From a bacterium (GTDB lineage Bacteria > Zhuqueibacterota > Zhuqueibacteria > Zhuqueibacterales > Geothermadaptataceae): DNA of 64,000 nt. The stretch's first letter is position 1. Each line of letters opens with the position of its first letter. Below the pieces are notes generated by a model. That model was given only the letters and a program-made list of their open reading frames with translations. It did not search any database and had not been told where the DNA came from. The translations under genes were made by a program, and so were the position numbers. Shown here in pieces: positions 8,949-32,953 of the stretch. The stretch is taken from the NCBI GenBank assembly GCA_024275575.1, contig JAJRYV010000101.1, forward strand, positions 1 to 64,000, given 5' to 3'.

Positions 8949-11900
8949 ATGAAGACTTCACAGATTTTTCTGTTCTTGCTGTTATATTTTGCAAGCATTG
9001 GATTACAGATCGCACAGTCACAGCCGGCTGCCATCTCACCATTCGGGATTCATGGCGAAAACCGGTACGTCTTTGATAATGCTTTAATGGACGCCGGGAT
9101 AAAAACCGTTCGCTATTCCGGCCCGCTGCCGGTTTGGGATTGGATAGAGCAAGCGCCGGGCGTTTATACCTGGAATCCATTGGATTCACTGGTAAACAAA
9201 ACTTTCGATTCCAATATCAGGATAATACTCACGGTAAGATCGTTCAACCGGTGGGATCAAGGAGTTACGGGGCCGCCTGCAGGGTCGCAGCTTTTTCCAA
9301 AGAACATTGAAGCCTACAAGCAGTTTCTCACAGCAATGGTCGAGCGCTATGACGGCGACGGCATCGAAGATGCAGCCGGTTCGCCGGTTGTGGAATACTT
9401 CCAGATTGAAAACGAAGTCGACGGAAATTTCTGGGACGATACGCCTGAAAAATACGGCGAATTGCTCAAGATCGCCTATGAAACCGTGAAGGCGGCCAAT
9501 CCGAACGCAAAGGTCATCATTGCCGGCGTGTCGATTGCCCGGGGTTTTTTCGATTATTACGTGCCGGTTTTCGATTATCTCTCCGCAAACGCAGACTCCG
9601 TGGGGTTGTCCTGCTTTGACATCTTCGACCTGCATTGGTATGGCGCCGCTGACGAGTACAACGAACTCGGCGGTTATTCCTTTGCCGGATTTCTGGCTTC
9701 GGTGCGGAATGAACTGGCGAGCCGGGGATGGGATAGAGATATACCCATCTGGGTTTCGGAGACAGCCACATATGGCGGGAAAGACGTCGTTAATAAAAAA
9801 GGTGAGTTACTGCCGCAGCAAGACGAGAGAGTGCAGGCAGGCAATTTAATCCACCGCTATGTATCCTACATTGCAAACGGTGCCGAAGCAGTCATGTGGT
9901 ATAAAATGATGGAAACTCACCACACAGGGGAAATGGGCGTCTCCAACGATTACTTCGAAAACACAGGACTTATTAACAATCCGCTGAACTCTGACAGTTT
10001 GTCCCATAAAAAACTCGCCTATTACACTTTCAAATTCCTGATAGACAAACTGGAGGGAGCGGATTGGGCTGCTATCCAAACTATCCGGGAAGCGGACAAT
10101 TTTCATGTCTACAAATTCACTAAAGTCGAAACCAGCGAGCCGGTTTACGTCGCCTGGTGGGACTGGTTCGACGAGCCGGGCTATTCCGGGGGCGAAACAA
10201 AAGACGTTACGTTACAAGTTGGAAGCCTGGATTCCGTCAGAGTTACCCAGGCCGTGCCCGACGCCGAAAGTGGCGCTGATTTGAATAAGAATGACTATCC
10301 GGCTTTCTTTGCATCGGCAACACTACCTGTAATAAACGGAACGGTGACAATCTCTCTGGGTGAGACCCCGGTTTTCGTGGAAGCTGAATCCTTGCCGACG
10401 ATCACAGAGCTGCCGTTTGAATCGTCCCGCTTCGGAATTTTTGGCGCCTATGCTCTGGAATACCGTTGGTTCATGCGTCAGATGGGATTTATTGATTCGG
10501 ATTACTGGAATTGGGTGGATGGACATTTTGTAAACCTGGGAACACATTGGACACGTTCCAACACGCAGTTGATATGGGCATTGATCGATCCCGACCTGGA
10601 TGGAAATTATGTCTGGAACATTATCACCAATCCCGACGGGGTCATTACAAATGTTTATGACAGTCCGGCCGGGGTGAACTGGCTCGGCAGTATTCATCTC
10701 GGTTTGGAGCCGGATGGTTCTTTCAGAAATCCGCTGGATCATCCCACGGAATGGCAAAATTTTATCATGGCTGCCGTTGACCGCTACAATGGCGATGGCA
10801 ATAATGACCTGAACGAATCTGTTCACGTCAAATACTGGCAATTCGGCAATGAAATCTTCCAATTAAAAGAGGCAAATTTGACGCCCGACGATTATGCGGA
10901 AATCGTGGCCTTATCAGAGTCGGCAATCCACGCCGTCGATCCCGAAGCGAAAATCTGCCTCGTCGCCCCCACGAATGCAGATGCTGTCGATCCTTTTTTG
11001 CAATTGACCATTCAAGCGCTTGCCGACCGGGGCGTCCCTCTTGATGTGATCGACATCCATCATTGGGATACGGCCGGCAATTACAAAATGAAGGCGCTTC
11101 CGGCTTATCGCCAACTTTTGGATAGCCTGAGTTACAAGAACGTGGAAATCTGGAGCGCTGAGAACGGCACCTATTGCTACCAACCTGCCGGGGCGCCGTT
11201 TCAAACAAAAGCCGAACAGGCCGCCAGTCTGGTGAAACGCTATTTATGGAACTTTGCCAACGGCCTGGACAAGCTGTTCTGGAACAACCTGATGGAGTGG
11301 CATGGTTTTGCCGGTTTTGATGGCTCCATATTCAACTCCATGGGCCTGATCGGCGACGGCGCCTATAATGGCGAGCCACCTGCGGAATTCAACCACATCC
11401 GCAAGAGTTATTACAGCTATAAAAAACTGGCTGAAAACATCGATGCACACAAAGCGGAGTTTGTCGGCGAAAGCAATTTCCATGACGAAGCGAACGGCAA
11501 CTCCGGCTATATTTACCGGGATCTGGCAACGGGCGCCCTTCTGCAGTTTATCTGGACAGAAACCGACAAGCTGGTCTATTCATTTTCCATAACCACCTCC
11601 CACGAATGGACCAACCTCATCCCCATCGACGAGGCGGGGGGATTTGCCAGTCGAATCCTGTCGCCCGGCAATCATGCCATCACCATAAAAGCGGGCGAGG
11701 TATTTTTATTGAAGGAGGCGAGCATCACTTCGGTTGGAGATGAGAATGGTTCGCCGGCTGCCAACGAGTTTGTTTTAAAACAAAATTACCCCAATCCATT
11801 CAATCCACAGACGACCATCGAATATCAACTTCCACAGCCCGGGCATGTGGCGCTGCACATTCTTAATGTTCAGGGACAGGAAGTGCGCATGGTGGTGGAT

Positions 11901-12041
11901 GAGAACCAACCGGCAGGGAGTTATTCGGTGGTTTGGGATGGAAAAGATAACTTCGGCAAAGAAGCGGCAGGCGGCATTTACTTTTTGCAGATGAGAATGA
12001 AAGAGTTTGTGCAAACCAAGAAGCTTTTGTTTTTGAAATAG
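8949..12041 (+). CDS. Secreted protein with two glycosidase-like barrels and C-terminal sorting-type tail
   Basis: This 1030-residue protein has a signal peptide (residues 1-25, ending in AQSQ) and two successive TIM-barrel domains that resemble family GH39/clan GH-A glycosidases. Domain 1 spans about 28-480 and carries IENEVD with E156 as likely acid/base and VSETATYG with E271 as likely nucleophile. Domain 2 spans about 485-925 with FGNEIF (E635) and SAENGTYC (E738). The tail from about 935 has NYPNPFNPQ and GGIYFLQM. Both domains keep both glutamates, so both may be active. A broken second copy of this gene lies 8 kb downstream at 17277. The gene clusters with a polysaccharide lyase and a TonB receptor, which suggests glycan breakdown. 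The exact linkage is unknown. Confidence 0.75.
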   Translation: MKTSQIFLFLLLYFASIGLQIAQSQPAAISPFGIHGENRYVFDNALMDAGIKTVRYSGPLPVWDWIEQAPGVYTWNPLDSLVNKTFDSNIRIILTVRSFNRWDQGVTGPPAGSQLFPKNIEAYKQFLTAMVERYDGDGIEDAAGSPVVEYFQIENEVDGNFWDDTPEKYGELLKIAYETVKAANPNAKVIIAGVSIARGFFDYYVPVFDYLSANADSVGLSCFDIFDLHWYGAADEYNELGGYSFAGFLASVRNELASRGWDRDIPIWVSETATYGGKDVVNKKGELLPQQDERVQAGNLIHRYVSYIANGAEAVMWYKMMETHHTGEMGVSNDYFENTGLINNPLNSDSLSHKKLAYYTFKFLIDKLEGADWAAIQTIREADNFHVYKFTKVETSEPVYVAWWDWFDEPGYSGGETKDVTLQVGSLDSVRVTQAVPDAESGADLNKNDYPAFFASATLPVINGTVTISLGETPVFVEAESLPTITELPFESSRFGIFGAYALEYRWFMRQMGFIDSDYWNWVDGHFVNLGTHWTRSNTQLIWALIDPDLDGNYVWNIITNPDGVITNVYDSPAGVNWLGSIHLGLEPDGSFRNPLDHPTEWQNFIMAAVDRYNGDGNNDLNESVHVKYWQFGNEIFQLKEANLTPDDYAEIVALSESAIHAVDPEAKICLVAPTNADAVDPFLQLTIQALADRGVPLDVIDIHHWDTAGNYKMKALPAYRQLLDSLSYKNVEIWSAENGTYCYQPAGAPFQTKAEQAASLVKRYLWNFANGLDKLFWNNLMEWHGFAGFDGSIFNSMGLIGDGAYNGEPPAEFNHIRKSYYSYKKLAENIDAHKAEFVGESNFHDEANGNSGYIYRDLATGALLQFIWTETDKLVYSFSITTSHEWTNLIPIDEAGGFASRILSPGNHAITIKAGEVFLLKEASITSVGDENGSPAANEFVLKQNYPNPFNPQTTIEYQLPQPGHVALHILNVQGQEVRMVVDENQPAGSYSVVWDGKDNFGKEAAGGIYFLQMRMKEFVQTKKLLFLK

Positions 12042-17276: not shown

Positions 17277-18252
17277 ATGAAAACGTCAAATTTTTTTTGT
17301 TCTTGTTGTTATATTTTGCAAGCATTGGATTACAGATTGCACAGTCGCAGCCGGCTGCCATCTCACCATTCGGGATTCATGGCGAAAACCGGTACGTCTT
17401 TGATAATGCTTTAATGGGCGCCGGGATAAAAACCGTTCGCTATTCCGGTCCGCTGCCGGTATGGGACGTGATCGAACGCGTGCAGGGCGTTTATAACTGG
17501 AGTTAATTGGATATGCTGGTAAGTAAAACTTTTCATTCCAATATCAGGATAATGCTCACGGTAAGATCGTTCAACCGGTGGGATCAAGGAGTTACGGGGC
17601 CGTCCGTGGGGTCGCAGCTTTTTCCAAAGAACATTGAAGCGTACAAGCAGTTTCTCACAGCAATGGTCGAGCGCTATGACGGCGACGGCGTCGAAGATGC
17701 AGCCGGTTCGCCGGTTGTGCAATACTTCCAGATTGAAAACGAAGTCGACGGAAATTTCTGGGACGATACGCCGGAAAAATACGGTGAATTGCTCAAGATC
17801 GCCTATAAAACCGTGAAGGCGGCCAATCCGAACGCAAAGGTTATCATTGCCGGCGTCTCTATTGCCCGGGGTTTTTTCGATCATTATGTGCCGGTTTTCG
17901 ATTACCTCTCTGCAAACGCAGACTCCGCGGGGTTGTCCTGCTTTGACGTCTTCGACCTGCACTGGTATGGCGCCGTTGACGAATACAGCGAGCTCAGCGG
18001 TTATTCATTCACAGGATTTCTGGCATCGGTGCGGAGTGAGCTGGCGAACCGGGGGTGGGATAGTGATATGCCCATCTGGGTTTCGGAGACAGCCACTTAT
18101 GGCGGGAAAGACGTCGTCAATCAGTGGCGTGGAATGCGAAAGACGGTTTTGGAAAAGAAGCAGCAGGCGGAATTTATTTTTTGCGGATGAAGGCCACGGA
18201 GTTTGTGCAGATAAAGAAGTTTTTGTTTTTGAAAACTGAAAAGCCCTCTTGA
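17277..18252 (+). pseudogene. Decayed copy of the glycosidase-like gene at 8949
   Basis: This stretch is a near-copy of the first part of the gene at 8949. It is broken in three ways. One base is missing in the signal-peptide codons soon after the ATG at 17277, shifting the frame. A TAA at 17504-17506 replaces the proline codon of the intact copy (tgg aat cca becomes tgg agt taa). A deletion of about 2 kb near 18121 then joins domain 1, just after KDVVN, to the C-terminal tail in another frame. The tail reads on as VAWNAKDGFGKEAAGG to a TGA at 18252. The catalytic-site words IENEVD and VSETATYG remain. A short expressed fragment is possible but unlikely to be functional. Confidence 0.88.
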
Positions 18253-26754: not shown

Positions 26755-27462
26755 TTATTTTGTGCTATCATCAATTTTTTTATATCCAGGTTCAATAGTG
26801 ATAGAATCAACAGGATTTCCGATGCATGCAAAAAAAGTTTTCCGGGTTTTTGCGGCGAAAATATAAAGATAATTATTTGTATGTTCAACCCGGTATCCTT
26901 CGTCAAAAGAAAGCCCCAGGATGTTTCGTATTATCATTTTATTCACATTACGATGGCCAACAATAAGAATATGCCCAGAACGAACGGCGTCTAAAAAAAT
27001 TGCAACCGGCTTTTCAATTCGTTTGTCAACCATTTTCAGGTTTTCTCCCCCTCCCGGTAAGACCACATTTATTTCATCATTTAAAAATGAGTTGTACATT
27101 TTTTTGGAAAAATCATCCGAAGGAAAAGATCTGTTTTGCCCTTCAAAAATTCCAAGTTTTGCCTCATTGAGTTCCGGCATTTTGATCAGTGGAATATTTT
27201 TAGCTTCACTGATTGGCCGGGCTGTTTGGATCGTCCGTTGAAGGACGCTGGTAAATATCCGTGTTATGTTAACGGGCTGCAACAAGAAAAAAAGATTTTT
27301 TCTTTGATTAAAGCCCTCGGGGCTGAGCGGCCTGTCTTGTTGCCCCTGGATGATGTTCAAGGCGTTCCAGTCACTTTCGCCATGCCTTGCAAGAAGCAGA
27401 CAGTTTTCGTTTAAGCTGTCCAGAAAAACCTGCAATGAACGATACGTTTGATGTTGTAGCAT
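26755..27462 (-). CDS. Histidine phosphatase family protein
   Basis: This 235-residue protein of the phosphoglycerate mutase-like histidine phosphatase superfamily has the phosphohistidine motif ARHGESDWN and a second catalytic histidine region, LIVGHRNVNK. It is the last gene of the minus-strand phosphonate operon, only 8 bases after the CDP-alcohol phosphotransferase. It could remove a phosphate from an intermediate or act as a housekeeping phosphatase. A role on a phosphonate or phospho-sugar is inferred only from position. Confidence 0.75.
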   Translation of the reverse strand: MLQHQTYRSLQVFLDSLNENCLLLARHGESDWNALNIIQGQQDRPLSPEGFNQRKNLFFLLQPVNITRIFTSVLQRTIQTARPISEAKNIPLIKMPELNEAKLGIFEGQNRSFPSDDFSKKMYNSFLNDEINVVLPGGGENLKMVDKRIEKPVAIFLDAVRSGHILIVGHRNVNKMIIRNILGLSFDEGYRVEHTNNYLYIFAAKTRKTFFACIGNPVDSITIEPGYKKIDDSTK

Positions 27463-27470
27463 AACTCAAT

Positions 27471-28199
27471 TCACTCGGAAAATATTTTAGCAGATTTTAT
27501 TAGTTTTGGTATTTTCCATAATCGGAAGATAAAATTTAAATAAAGCAAAACAGCCTGTATTATTATCAACCAATAAATAATAGTTGCATGAGCACTTACG
27601 GCATACGCAATAATACCAATGGAAAGATAGAAAAGCCGTGTATCGCTACCGGCGCAAAACCAGCGAAAAAATAGCTCAGTATCATTTTTGGGATAATTTT
27701 CATGAAAAACAGAACGGAATTTTTCCGATGATGCCGTGATAAGAAACAGGGCGCCCATATAAGCAAAGAAAATCATGCCCCAGGCGAGATCCGGCGTGAC
27801 TTCATGCATATAAAACAAGAGTGCTCCGGTAATCAGGACTTCGGCCAACCTGTCAACCATGGTATCATAAAAATCACCCAACCTGCTGCTACTTTTTGTC
27901 ACACGGGCGATCTCCCCATCCACACAGGACCAGACGCCAAAGAGCTGAATGAGCGCTACGCCGATAAATAAATATCCCCAAGTCAAATACAGTGCTGTAA
28001 AAAGGGCAAGAATGAAATCAACAAGAGTTGCTGAATTTGCGGAGATGCCGCGCCGTAAGCAGAAGCCTGTCGTGGGTGCAGAAAATCGGCGTAAAACCAG
28101 GTAGCTAAAAGCACCGTCACTTGATTTTTTTGCCAGTTTCGGATAGTGAGTAACATTCGAATCTGTTTTTTTTTTTGATTTTCCAATAGCGCTCCACAA
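27471..28199 (-). CDS. CDP-alcohol phosphotransferase, likely for phosphonate head-group transfer
   Basis: This inner-membrane enzyme of 242 residues has several hydrophobic segments. It contains the complete CDP-alcohol phosphotransferase signature: DGEIAR, then eight residues, then GDFYDTMVD, matching DGxxAR-x8-GxxxDxxxD. The family moves a CMP-linked group onto an alcohol. Here the neighbours make CMP-aminoethylphosphonate, so it most likely transfers that head group to a diacylglycerol-type lipid to form a phosphonolipid, as proposed for other PntC-containing clusters. A TTG at 28199 is the apparent start; the ribosome-binding site is weak, so the exact N-terminus is uncertain. Confidence 0.8.
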   Translation of the reverse strand: MWSAIGKSKKKTDSNVTHYPKLAKKSSDGAFSYLVLRRFSAPTTGFCLRRGISANSATLVDFILALFTALYLTWGYLFIGVALIQLFGVWSCVDGEIARVTKSSSRLGDFYDTMVDRLAEVLITGALLFYMHEVTPDLAWGMIFFAYMGALFLITASSEKFRSVFHENYPKNDTELFFRWFCAGSDTRLFYLSIGIIAYAVSAHATIIYWLIIIQAVLLYLNFIFRLWKIPKLIKSAKIFSE

Positions 28200-28223
28200 C
28201 AGAAAAAATGAAATTTTTGAATG

Positions 28224-29219
28224 CTATACTGTTTGTTTAACCGGAGAGAGTTTTATATCGTTCACGATAAGATATCCTTTCAAAGAACTGAGAAACCCGG
28301 TAATATCATCCTTTGTTATGGCCCCCATATTAGCGAGGCGAAAAGTATTCTGTTTTGCGCCTTTTCCCGGATAAATCGTATAACCGCGCTGGTCAAGATA
28401 ATCATGCATTTTTGTAAAACTGTAATTATTACTATCAGGCTCAATAATGGCCGTCAATATTTTTGAATGATATTTTTTCTCGACAAGATAGTGAAACCCG
28501 AGTTCCCGCAGGCCTTTTTCAAGCACCTCGTACATTTCGCTATACCGCTGCTCCCGTCCTGGTCCCGTTTCGAGAAAATATTCATTTATGGCCTGTCTTA
28601 GGGCATAAAAAATCTGCACCGGCGGGGTAAATTGCATCTCATGTTTTTGAGCAAAAAAGACATAGTTCTGATAAAGATTAAAATAGAAATTTCTTGGTTT
28701 GATCTCTTTGCTCTTTTCAAGGGATTCTTGCTTGCAGATTACAAAGCTGAGCCCGGCCATCGCCTGAATACATTTATTTGTCGATGCGATAAGATAATGA
28801 ATATCTGAGCGCTTTATGTTTATTTGAATGCCCGCGAAAGAGGACATGGCGTCAACGATTGTTTCAACACCAAATTTTCGGGCGATAGCGGAAATTGCCG
28901 TGATATCATTCAGGATTCCGACGGTTGTCTCGTGATGAATAAAAGCAATATGGGATATTTCTTTTTTATGCCGCTCGAGAATATTCTCAAGCTTTTTACT
29001 ATTGACAGGGTCGCCCCAGGTTATATTGTAATCGATGTGTGAAATGCCATATCCATCGCATATCTGTTGCATCCTTTTGCCGTAAGCGCCATTGTTGATG
29101 ATAAGAACCGATTTATCGCGGGGAACAACCGAGCTTAAAACAGCTTCGACAGCACCCGTTCCTGACGAAGCAAAAAGCACCGCTTCATACATATCCTCGC
29201 CATGAACAATTCTGACCAA
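28224..29219 (-). CDS. 2-aminoethylphosphonate-pyruvate transaminase, C-terminal part of a split PntC fusion
   Basis: This PLP transaminase interconverts phosphonoacetaldehyde plus an amino donor with 2-aminoethylphosphonate. VDAMSSFAG holds the PLP aspartate and ASTNKCIQ the Schiff-base lysine. The segment has no proper start. The transaminase N-terminus (ILLNPGPAT...NDICPR) is encoded at the end of the cytidylyltransferase gene upstream, and the codons 29220-29258 continue the same frame as HEFGELISGIRQDL after one TAA. Homologues read CPRExEFG here, so the stop sits at the glutamate codon. Without readthrough or a TTG restart at 29219, the enzyme would lack its first 30 or so residues. The natural product is therefore probably a single PntC-transaminase protein of about 625 residues. 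Confidence 0.85.
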   Translation of the reverse strand: MVRIVHGEDMYEAVLFASSGTGAVEAVLSSVVPRDKSVLIINNGAYGKRMQQICDGYGISHIDYNITWGDPVNSKKLENILERHKKEISHIAFIHHETTVGILNDITAISAIARKFGVETIVDAMSSFAGIQINIKRSDIHYLIASTNKCIQAMAGLSFVICKQESLEKSKEIKPRNFYFNLYQNYVFFAQKHEMQFTPPVQIFYALRQAINEYFLETGPGREQRYSEMYEVLEKGLRELGFHYLVEKKYHSKILTAIIEPDSNNYSFTKMHDYLDQRGYTIYPGKGAKQNTFRLANMGAITKDDITGFLSSLKGYLIVNDIKLSPVKQTV

Positions 29220-29258
29220 ATCCTGCCTGATCCCGCTTATAAGCTCACCGAACTCGTG

Positions 29259-30104
29259 TTATCTCGGACAAATATCGTTAACGAGCATGGCGCTTTTGAC
29301 AGAATTTGTCGTGGTGGCAGGCCCCGGGTTTAGCAGGATATTTCTCGAAACTCTTTTCGATATAATGACTTCCACATCTCTTTGTTTAATGAGTGGATAG
29401 ATATTTTCACGGGCTTTGCTTAAATGGTTTTCATCATCAATTTCTATCCATGCCAGATTTTCTATGTATTCATAATGTATGGCATTTGAATCGCTGATAG
29501 CCGTGAGACAATCCTCATAGTGATACTGAGCGATAGCCTTGCATTTTTCTTTGGCGCAATGTAGCATCTGCTGATACAGCTTTAGTGATATTTTGGAAAT
29601 ACCGACAAGCTCGCCTGCGAGAATATTTATATCATCACGTTGCTTTGACAACTTGATGATTCTATCACCCTGAACTCCAACATAAACTTCATCGCCTGCG
29701 CCGGTTTTTCCGGAAAGTAAAATACAGTTATCTTTTGAAGAATTTTGCAATGTCTCGAGGGCGCTGTATTCGTAAATCAGGTCAGACTCTAACAGCAAGA
29801 AATCATTTTTGACAAGAGAAGCCGCAGCACAGAGGGAAAGCATACTGCCTGTTGTCACAAATTCCGGATTATGAATTGTCCGGATAAAAGGGAGCCTTTC
29901 AGCAAGTATTTCATAAAATTCATGGCAATAACCGGTTACGATGATAATATCATTTATTCCAGCGCGAATAAGTTTAGCAATCGATTCTTCGATAATCGGT
30001 ATGTCCCCCAATCTTAAAAACCCTTTCGGACGGTCATCGAACTTGCCTTTAAGCCGGGAGCCAACCCCGGCACCTAATATGACTGCTTGTCGAATATTGA
30101 ACAT
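29259..30104 (-). CDS. pntC: PntC-type CTP:phosphonate cytidylyltransferase, N-terminal part of a split fusion
   Basis: This cytoplasmic nucleotidyltransferase activates 2-aminoethylphosphonate with CTP to give CMP-aminoethylphosphonate. Residues 1-245 show the sugar-nucleotidyltransferase fold with GAGVGSRLKGK, the lysine in DRPKGFLRL, and LLLESDLIY for metal binding. The last 35 residues (RNILLNPGPATT to NDICPR) do not belong to this fold. They are the start of an aminoethylphosphonate transaminase, and the TAA at 29259-29261 interrupts that domain in frame. PntC-transaminase fusions are known in Treponema and other phosphonate producers. AAAGAGA lies upstream of the ATG at 30104. Confidence 0.85.
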   Translation of the reverse strand: MFNIRQAVILGAGVGSRLKGKFDDRPKGFLRLGDIPIIEESIAKLIRAGINDIIIVTGYCHEFYEILAERLPFIRTIHNPEFVTTGSMLSLCAAASLVKNDFLLLESDLIYEYSALETLQNSSKDNCILLSGKTGAGDEVYVGVQGDRIIKLSKQRDDINILAGELVGISKISLKLYQQMLHCAKEKCKAIAQYHYEDCLTAISDSNAIHYEYIENLAWIEIDDENHLSKARENIYPLIKQRDVEVIISKRVSRNILLNPGPATTTNSVKSAMLVNDICPR

Positions 30105-30115
30105 AAAATCTCTTT

Positions 30116-31276
30116 TTAATAAGTGTTATTCAGATAGTTCATAAATCTTTCTTTTACCTTTTCCGGTTTAATCGTCGGCCTGCCCAGGTTTTCCGGAACA
30201 CCGGGATTCGTTTTGAGATGAATAAAAATGGCGCCCTTCATCTCCATCGCTTGAGATATGCGGCGATTAAACACATCAAGGTCGTCAGTGGAAAAAATAT
30301 GCTTGTAGCCGAAACCTTTTGCAATGTCTGGAAATGAGACTTTGCCTGATAAAGACTGCTGCCCCCCTGTTGATTCATGGATTTGATTATCAAAAAGAAT
30401 ATGGATCAAATTAGCGGGCGCATACATGGCGATTACCGCCATAGAACCCGCCCGCATCAGCAAGGCGCCATCACCATCCACTACAATAACTTTTAACGCT
30501 GATTTGCTGAGCGCCAAACCGGTACCAATGGACAGGGCACATCCCATAGATCCGGCCATATAAAGCTGGTTGCCCCTGTCTTCAAGCATACAAAGTTCAC
30601 GCCCGGTAAAACCTGTTGTTGCAATGACTGCAGTTCCTTCTCCTGATATTGACTGTATTATTTGCAGGGCCTCGTTACGGGTAGGTCTTTTATTATTTCC
30701 GATATTGCAATTATCTTCGATTGGTTCGGCAAGCGCCAGATCGCCTGTATAATCGAAAGCATTTAGCTTATATGGCGCCATATCTCCCTTGCGCATGACA
30801 AACGCAAAAGGAAGCTTTTTCTCCTTCATAAAGACTTCTGATTTCTCAAGGACGCTCTCGATTTCTTCACGTGATTGTGGAAAATATGACCAACCGATTT
30901 GCATGGTTTCAAGAAGGTCTGTGGTGATTTTTCCCATTAGTTCATGTTGCGGTTCATCTTTTGAGCCACCCGGTTCGCCACGTAGTGTAACGATTAACAA
31001 TGCTGGAATTTTAAAAGTGTGAGTTAAAGAAATCAATGGGTTTACAGCATTTCCAAGCCCTGAATTCTGAAACATAACAACACTTTTTTTGCCCGCCAGA
31101 GCAGCCCCGCAGGCTAATCCAATAGCATCACCTTCGTTTGCGGCATTGACAAAACTAAACGCAGCGTTGCTCATGACATAATTAATTATCGGTTTAAGAT
31201 AGGAACAAGGAGTCCCGGTATAAAAATTAAAACCGCGGTTTAAACATCGCTCTAAAAAATCTCCGGTATTAATCAC
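30116..31276 (-). CDS. ppd: Phosphonopyruvate decarboxylase
   Basis: This 386-residue thiamine-diphosphate enzyme decarboxylates phosphonopyruvate to phosphonoacetaldehyde, the irreversible step that drives phosphonate formation. The N-terminal pyrimidine-binding half contains FYTGTPCSYLKP and NAANEGDAIGLACG. The C-terminal half has the cofactor motif GDGALLMRAGS followed by FDNQIHESTGGQ. A GTG at 31276 with AGGAA close upstream is the apparent start and matches the N-termini of homologues. It is separated from PEP mutase by 3 bases and precedes the cytidylyltransferase by 11, so it is clearly in one operon. Confidence 0.93.
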   Translation of the reverse strand: MINTGDFLERCLNRGFNFYTGTPCSYLKPIINYVMSNAAFSFVNAANEGDAIGLACGAALAGKKSVVMFQNSGLGNAVNPLISLTHTFKIPALLIVTLRGEPGGSKDEPQHELMGKITTDLLETMQIGWSYFPQSREEIESVLEKSEVFMKEKKLPFAFVMRKGDMAPYKLNAFDYTGDLALAEPIEDNCNIGNNKRPTRNEALQIIQSISGEGTAVIATTGFTGRELCMLEDRGNQLYMAGSMGCALSIGTGLALSKSALKVIVVDGDGALLMRAGSMAVIAMYAPANLIHILFDNQIHESTGGQQSLSGKVSFPDIAKGFGYKHIFSTDDLDVFNRRISQAMEMKGAIFIHLKTNPGVPENLGRPTIKPEKVKERFMNYLNNTY

Positions 31277-31279
31277 TTC

Positions 31280-32161
31280 CTAATTCCCCTCAATAGCGGG
31301 GAGATATTTCTTCTCGGCCTGGGTCAATTCATTCGCTTCCTGTAGTTCAAATACTTCAGCAAGGGTGGCGACTTTTTTTTCAACATCAACAAGGGACTGC
31401 ATTTCATGTATCTGCAGGGCTGTTTTCTTCATGGCGGTGATCGCTGATCTCATCAAATGGTTGGCCCAAATAACCAGACTGATATCTAATTCTCTAAAAA
31501 TGCTTGTTGGGGTGGTGTAGTATTTTGTCGGAACAATGACAACCGCCCCACGGTTGCCCCATTCTTTCAGAAATGAATGGATTTCATCAAAAGTTGAAAT
31601 TTTGCTATGTATCAGCACCGCATCTGCACCTGCCTGGTGGTAGGCAATTGCGCGCTTCAGTGTTTCATCGACGCCCCATCCGGCAATAAAGGCTTCCACT
31701 CGGGCGATAACGCAGAAATCATCATCTTTCTGTGAATCTTTTCCGGCTTTAATTTTACCGCAAAATTCATCGATATTAGCAAGTTTTTGATGCTCACTTA
31801 GAAAACTATTGGTCTTCGGGAAAAGCTTGTCCTCTATACAAACTCCAGCGATATCACGGTGCTCGAGTTTTTTGACAAGTCTGCGAAAGTTATTGAAGTT
31901 CCCATAGCCTGTATCTCCATCCAGCAAGATTGGAATAGAGGTCGCATCGCTCATAAATTCCACGATTTCCAGCACTTGTGTCCAGCTCGCTTCGTTATTA
32001 TCGCGAATACCAAGCGCCGCACTCATCGAAAGCCCACTCGCCCAAATGCCTTTGAAGCCTGACTGCTCAACAATTCGGGCAGACAAACCATTGTGCGCTT
32101 CCATTAAAAATCCCAGATCAGCGCTAAACAGCATATTTTTTAATAGTGTCGTTTTTTTCAA
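31280..32161 (-). CDS. pepM: Phosphoenolpyruvate mutase
   Basis: This 293-residue enzyme rearranges phosphoenolpyruvate to phosphonopyruvate, forming the C-P bond that starts nearly all phosphonate pathways. The diagnostic motif [10 protein letters not shown] is at residues 110-119, separating it from isocitrate-lyase-type relatives. DGDTGYGN at 81-88 holds the metal-binding aspartates. The apparent start is TTG (32159-32161), backed by a strong AAGGAG 6-7 bases upstream; no ATG is placed as well. It follows a perfect 15-base-pair hairpin after the LicD gene and leads the decarboxylase and cytidylyltransferase genes. Confidence 0.95.
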
Positions 32162-32204
32162 TTTTTTCTCCTTGGGAAGCTAAATCCCGTAAATTCTATG
32201 ATAT

Positions 32205-32238
32205 CCAGGTGTATTTCATTGTTATGAAATACACCTGG
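32205..32238 (-). promoter_or_regulatory. Perfect 15-bp hairpin between licD and pepM
   Basis: CCAGGTGTATTTCAT (32205-32219) and ATGAAATACACCTGG (32224-32238) form a perfect stem with a 4-base loop. No T-run follows on either side, so it is not a standard intrinsic terminator. In the transcript it would separate the LicD gene from the phosphonate genes and could act as an RNA processing or stability element, or a binding palindrome. Confidence 0.6.
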
Positions 32239-32254
32239 TTGAGCGCCAGGAAAG

Positions 32255-32953
32255 TTATTTTTGTACTTGCAGAAATTTCAGTACATCATTCACTGTTTTT
32301 TTAACGAGTGGAAACCCGGTAGGTTTGTAAAGCCGGTGATCGAGTGTAGAAGGTATGCAATAGTGCATCCAGTCGTCGGTGCCGAAATATTCATTCAGTA
32401 TTTTTTCAGGGTTATGAGGAATTAAAACAGAAAAATCTTTAAATGTTTTTCGCTGTAATGGAAAAAAATCAGCAGTATGATAAACAAACTTTTCAGGTGG
32501 AAGAGTCATGCTCCCTGTTTTAAAAACAGGCTCCCATATCCCAAGCCACGGGAATTTCCAGCCAACCTCCGGGATAGCGCTGCCTTTCTTTGAATAAATG
32601 CGATATCCGCATCGTGTTTTAAGTTTGATAACAGGTAGTTTAGCGATGGGGCTTATTCTGCGAATATCCTGCAAAACAGTATATCCTCTTTCTGCAAACT
32701 TTTCAATGCAGCGCTTTTCAAATTTTTTGATATCAAAGATGATAATATCGAGGTCATCATCCCAGGGAATGAAATCACTATGACGCAAAAGTCCGAGCAG
32801 GGTGCCAAACATCAGGCAGTAATCTATACCTTCCGATGTTAAAATATCATCAGCATCACGAAGATGTTGTATTGCCGCCTCTTTTTCCTGGAAGAAACCG
32901 GTTTTTTTAAAATAGATTAATTCACTATCATTATTTTTCATGAATAGCTTCAT
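32255..32953 (-). CDS. LicD family phospho-/phosphono-head-group transferase
   Basis: This 232-residue protein of the LicD (fukutin-like) nucleotidyltransferase-fold family moves phosphorylcholine or similar groups from a CDP donor to surface glycans. The core motif is GTLLGLLRHSDF followed by IPWDDDLDIII, with the metal-binding aspartates. It is the first gene of the minus-strand run that makes CMP-aminoethylphosphonate, so aminoethylphosphonate is the likely group transferred. The acceptor, probably a lipopolysaccharide or capsule sugar, is not shown by the sequence. Confidence 0.82.
   Translation of the reverse strand: MKLFMKNNDSELIYFKKTGFFQEKEAAIQHLRDADDILTSEGIDYCLMFGTLLGLLRHSDFIPWDDDLDIIIFDIKKFEKRCIEKFAERGYTVLQDIRRISPIAKLPVIKLKTRCGYRIYSKKGSAIPEVGWKFPWLGIWEPVFKTGSMTLPPEKFVYHTADFFPLQRKTFKDFSVLIPHNPEKILNEYFGTDDWMHYCIPSTLDHRLYKPTGFPLVKKTVNDVLKFLQVQK

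Follow-up and report, generated by a model that had tools for sequence, protein, structure and literature searches.

Background

The closest described counterpart of the gene considered here is the PntC-AEPT protein of Treponema denticola (Tde1415), in which a PntC cytidylyltransferase is fused to a 2-aminoethylphosphonate (AEP) transaminase (AEPT). The structure of this protein is available as 6PD1, and both CMP-AEP formation and transaminase activity have been reported for it (PMC6697681). The transaminase domain also has a stand-alone counterpart, PhnW (1M32).

In this study, we analyzed a stretch of 64,000 nucleotides from an uncultured bacterium (contig JAJRYV010000101.1, hereafter the window), in which a gene of the PntC-AEPT kind is interrupted by a stop codon. 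We compared this gene with its relatives and with other interrupted genes of the same assembly, and we weighed the possible origins of the stop.

Results

An interrupted PntC-AEPT gene in a phosphonate cassette

An in-frame TAA within a PntC-transaminase fusion, with the frame continuing beyond it without a shift, was the core of the original prediction, and translation of the minus strand bears it out. From 30104 to 28224, the frame encodes a PntC cytidylyltransferase and then AEPT, and its sole interruption is the TAA at 29261-29259. The upstream piece (29262-30104, minus strand) begins with the ATG at 30104 and has 281 codons, which comprise the PntC-like domain and the first 25 AEPT residues; it ends in the residues ...NPGPATTTNSVKSAMLVNDICPR and matches PF12804/PF00483, TIGR03301 and 6PD1 (E 1.5e-64). 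Past the TAA, the same frame resumes at HEFGELISGIRQDL... and runs for 344 codons (28224-29258, minus strand), ending in a TAG at 28226-28224. No frame shift or second lesion was found in the minus-strand translation of 28224-30104.

The match to the NCBIfam family TIGR03301 (PhnW-AepZ) is divided between the two pieces, with positions 1-25 in the upstream piece (residues 256-281) and positions 28-353 in the downstream piece, so that the TAA cuts a real domain. The downstream piece scores above the family cut-off by itself (367 bits against 360.8), matches the structures 6PD1 (E 1.1e-80) and 1M32 (E 3.5e-63), and keeps the PLP lysine motif TNKCIQ and the C-terminal NTFRLANMG. The domain order is that of the fusion, with PF12804 upstream and TIGR03301 downstream, colinear with 6PD1. 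When the frame was read through the stop, for comparison only, residues 4-612 of the product aligned with residues 2-609 of 6PD1 (E 3.3e-153), with Glu at the stop site; this alignment of the joined product with a known fusion, which the original prediction had proposed, runs from end to end. Together with the domain profiles, it confirms the gene identity that had been proposed, and the window gene is, judging from its sequence, an ordinary PntC-AEPT fusion, a known kind of gene.

Profile matches also place the fusion in a phosphonate biosynthesis neighbourhood, all on the minus strand. Upstream are a LicD-family phosphotransferase (32255-32953; PF04991), a PEP mutase (PepM, 31280-32161; TIGR02320, 383 bits, cut-off 319.6) with a ten-residue motif visible in its sequence, and a phosphonopyruvate decarboxylase (Ppd, 30116-31276; TIGR03297, 403.5 bits, cut-off 312.5). 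Downstream are a CDP-alcohol phosphatidyltransferase (27471-28199; PF01066) and a histidine phosphatase family protein (26755-27462; PF00300). PepM, Ppd, AEPT, PntC and the CDP-alcohol and LicD transferases make up a predicted phosphonate head-group cassette. Elsewhere in the window, the glycoside-hydrolase-like gene at 8949-12041 has a second, truncated counterpart at 17507-18239; the frame of this copy is lost past QWRGMRK.

Relatives of the fusion gene and of the cassette

A scan of genome contigs yielded four relatives of the fusion gene (L006-L009) in MAGs named Desulfobacteraceae, Desulfobacterales and Planctomycetota. Their identity to the window gene is 66-74% upstream of the TAA and 69-79% downstream. 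A single open frame spans both domains in all four relatives but not in the window gene. At the site of the stop, each of the four reads CPREKEFG, with the codons GAA AAA GAG where the window has TAA CAC GAG; the TAA thus lies one base from a glutamate codon, as had been predicted. The change in the following codon (Lys to His, AAA versus CAC) is ordinary divergence.

The part of the gene downstream of the stop has an NG86 dN/dS of about 0.07-0.12 relative to these homologs, compared with 0.08-0.11 for PntC and 0.04-0.15 for the neighbouring genes, all of these being rough values with synonymous sites near saturation. This part is free of visible decay. Since its dN/dS is like that of the neighbours and no second lesion is present, the stop, if real, would be recent.

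L008 and L009 share with the window the gene order LicD, PepM, Ppd, PntC-AEPT, and a CDP-alcohol transferase lies downstream of the fusion in L006 and L007, in the latter with the phosphatase as well. L007 differs from the window in that LicD adjoins PntC-AEPT, with no PepM or Ppd between them. Closer to the organism itself, 14 other genomes of the same order have only distant transaminases (22-26% identity), and searches for PepM in the same genus and family found none. The cassette (26755-32953), lacking in its own genus and family and with close matches in Desulfobacteraceae MAGs, therefore looks horizontally acquired.

In-frame stops elsewhere in the assembly

A class-V transaminase gene adjoining phosphoglycerate dehydrogenase on contig C83 of the same assembly also contains an in-frame TAA, and its orthologues in relatives are open. 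This prompted a search for hexamer coding signal flanking single in-frame stops, which covered 1.74 Mb (35%) of the assembly; 0.4 Mb of a genome of the same genus (G002) was scanned in the same way as a control. Candidates were tested by comparing concatenated protein segments with relatives, by examining orthologue codons at the loci and, for ten of them, by Pfam.

In the 1.74 Mb, checks against relatives or domains left sixteen genes that each carry one in-frame stop, the PntC-AEPT gene of the window included. The others encode a UvrD helicase (L054:9087, TAG), a class-V transaminase (L044:14732, TAA), an HD-type response regulator (L042:3381, TAA), a chemoreceptor (L046:3841, TAA), an ECF sigma factor (L082:12051, TAA), a PMT-type transferase (L151:5228, TAA), an unnamed repeat-like protein (L127:18090, TAA), a TPR protein (L136:13644, TAG), an unnamed protein (L099:2743, TAA), a PAS-domain protein (L059:1431, TGA) and, named from recognised motifs, a putative LD-carboxypeptidase (L149:305, TAA), a putative S9-type peptidase (L075:14598, TAA), a putative zinc carboxypeptidase (L064:7114, TAA) and a large protein, possibly of the CotH kind (L137:8886, TGA). 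Cas3 (L087:3825, TAA) was included on its continuing frame and coding signal; no relative of it was found, and its recognised domains finish upstream of the stop. Candidates with no informative relative or no check (L074:8647, L075:17865, L100:11532 and some weaker ones) were left out of the sixteen, and those at L154:16714, L159:4246, L076:12024, L094:6912, L155:348 and both L048 sites were dropped as conserved gene ends.

The interrupting stops sit on many contigs, with TAA, TAG and TGA all represented, and every interrupted gene has an intact frame past the stop and one lesion. No clear interrupted gene was found in the 0.4 Mb of the G002 control, in which six candidates, judged by eye, resembled either the end of one gene with the start of another after it or a short, spurious frame. 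For the PF00266 family, which was searched without selection, two in-frame stops occur in 16 matches in this assembly, versus one in the matches listed for 14 relatives. A frameshift scan, itself insensitive, gave five matches versus none in the control, two of the five without a nearby start; frameshifts seem rare, and indels are not the main lesion type. The stop in the window is therefore not peculiar to the phosphonate gene, and it does not look like the work of a special mechanism; these stops are probably sequence errors.

Read-through and restart

It had also been suggested that the TAA might be read through or bypassed by a restart at the TTG at 29219. Useful read-through or suppression, giving full-length product from this gene and from the other interrupted ones, is consistent with the intact frame past the stop in all of these genes and with the mostly polar character of the former residues. 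However, the long frames in the sample end in TAA (471), TGA (319) and TAG (153), so that normal termination in the sampled genome most often uses TAA and no stop codon is unused for it, and no suppressor tRNA with a stop-reading anticodon was seen among the 39 of 41 tRNAs read. In addition, all three stop codons occur among the interruptions, for which a single suppressor would be insufficient, and the relatives have a sense codon at the site. Read-through is thus unsupported and, in our estimate, very unlikely; in its gene-specific, programmed form it was ruled out by the like lesions in unrelated genes.

The two pieces of the window gene are intact, adjacent and conserved and together make up nearly the full family profile, as they might in a working split enzyme in which PntC with 25 transaminase residues is joined by a separately started transaminase body. 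Yet there is no start codon at the TAA itself, and the first common start past it is the TTG at 29219, 14 codons downstream; a restart there would leave out 41 transaminase residues, the NPGP segment among them, and this part of the original prediction is likewise without support. Since the frame is uninterrupted in all four relatives and like stops break unrelated genes, a split enzyme is scarcely credible. Even taken jointly, read-through and a working split enzyme are improbable.

Base spectrum and conservation of the interrupted genes

The former codon could be read from relatives in 12 of the 16 genes. It was Glu in eight, Gln in two, Gly (GGA) in one and Lys in one, where the Glu call at L149 and the Gln call at L064 concern positions variable among relatives and the Glu call at L042 rests on paralogues. 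Glu is over-represented (8 of 12) relative to a codon opportunity of 18% (P ~3e-4), and nine changes are G to T on the coding strand versus no C to A (P ~0.02), with both P values to be taken as guides only because the set was hand-curated and thresholds were picked while looking. An exclusive G to T change, guessed from consensus motifs, was ruled out by the orthologues (one Lys, two Gln).

Compared with their best G002 match, the 16 interrupted genes show a median of 64.5% identity, and 28 coding segments drawn at random from the same sample likewise show 64.5% (Mann-Whitney P 0.57); no selective filter against hits in conserved genes is visible. Real stops old enough for filtering should avoid conserved genes; the absence of filtering points to error, or to mutations so recent that selection has not yet acted on them. 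The implied rate is ~4e-4 changes per site, which would imply many unseen missense changes too.

Discussion

Origin of the stop

We regard the TAA as part of a scatter of base changes that extends across the genome, and there is about an even chance that it arose as a consensus error in the draft. Base-level consensus errors would then have scattered single-base nonsense changes across the assembly, the TAA of the window included. The organism itself would carry an open 626-codon frame at the fusion gene and would make AEP and CMP-AEP, as the T. denticola enzyme does. The choice of error over mutation is inferred, as is all biochemical function described here. This reading is supported by the GAA in all four relatives, by the sixteen interrupted genes on many contigs against no clear case in G002, by the PF00266 counts and by the lack of decay past the stop; it is also supported by the equal conservation of interrupted genes and random segments, which is expected of errors.

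Library-damage artefacts should be blind to the coding strand, so the coding-strand bias (nine G to T, no C to A) is not expected of library damage and the spectrum does not settle between error and mutation. Oxidised guanine is given as a known source of library G to T artefacts in two reports (PMC12390751, PMC8748355). The otherwise good quality of the assembly (97.7% complete, 1.1% contaminated) and the apparent rarity of frameshifts in the insensitive scan also count against an error.

The same strand-biased spectrum, with GAA or GAG to stop predominant, argues for a real and recent nonsense mutation in a lineage where single-base changes have been building up, G to T in excess, owing to a mutator state or a bottleneck. 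A single lesion per gene in otherwise conserved sequence fits a recent origin, and the cassette is accessory, being absent from the organism's own genus and family. On the other hand, no filtering is seen, and UvrD and the class-V transaminase beside phosphoglycerate dehydrogenase are among the genes hit. Changes from G:C to T:A are normally held in check by MutY, which is intact here (TIGR01084, 340.5 bits, cut-off 286.5, no internal stop); a MutY-deficient mutator was ruled out, as mutY is neither missing nor broken. A real mutation is a plausible reading that falls short of an even chance, and consensus error is somewhat more likely. Of the original interpretation, the gene identity, the change from GAA to TAA and the choice between a recent nonsense mutation and an assembly error hold, and read-through and restart do not.

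If the stop is real, PntC could still be produced, but AEPT and the AEP supply would be lost, as searches of the assembly gave no further AEPT-like gene; no AEP would then be expected from the cassette, barring a substitute enzyme. It is unlikely that the scatter as a whole is real and reflects a natural lineage in which genes, the phosphonate enzyme gene among them, are being lost to a G to T process biased to the coding strand, or in which weak suppression makes stops tolerable. Should the scatter be real, the genome would offer a case in which to study gene loss under biased mutation in an uncultured bacterium. Because such stops occur in many unrelated conserved genes of the same assembly, the interrupted gene should not, before reads are seen, be taken as a sign that the pathway is lost, that the stop is read through or that the enzyme is split.

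Comparison with known systems

The stand-alone transaminase PhnW (1M32), which the read-through product matches with E 4.8e-70, belongs to the same family as the window gene across the entire transaminase domain but, unlike it, has no PntC fusion. The PntC-AEPT genes of L006-L009 differ from the window gene in having an open frame. The T. denticola protein Tde1415 (6PD1/6PD2) has the same two-domain order as the window gene; it is encoded by one open frame, whereas in the window the transaminase is cut past its residue 25.
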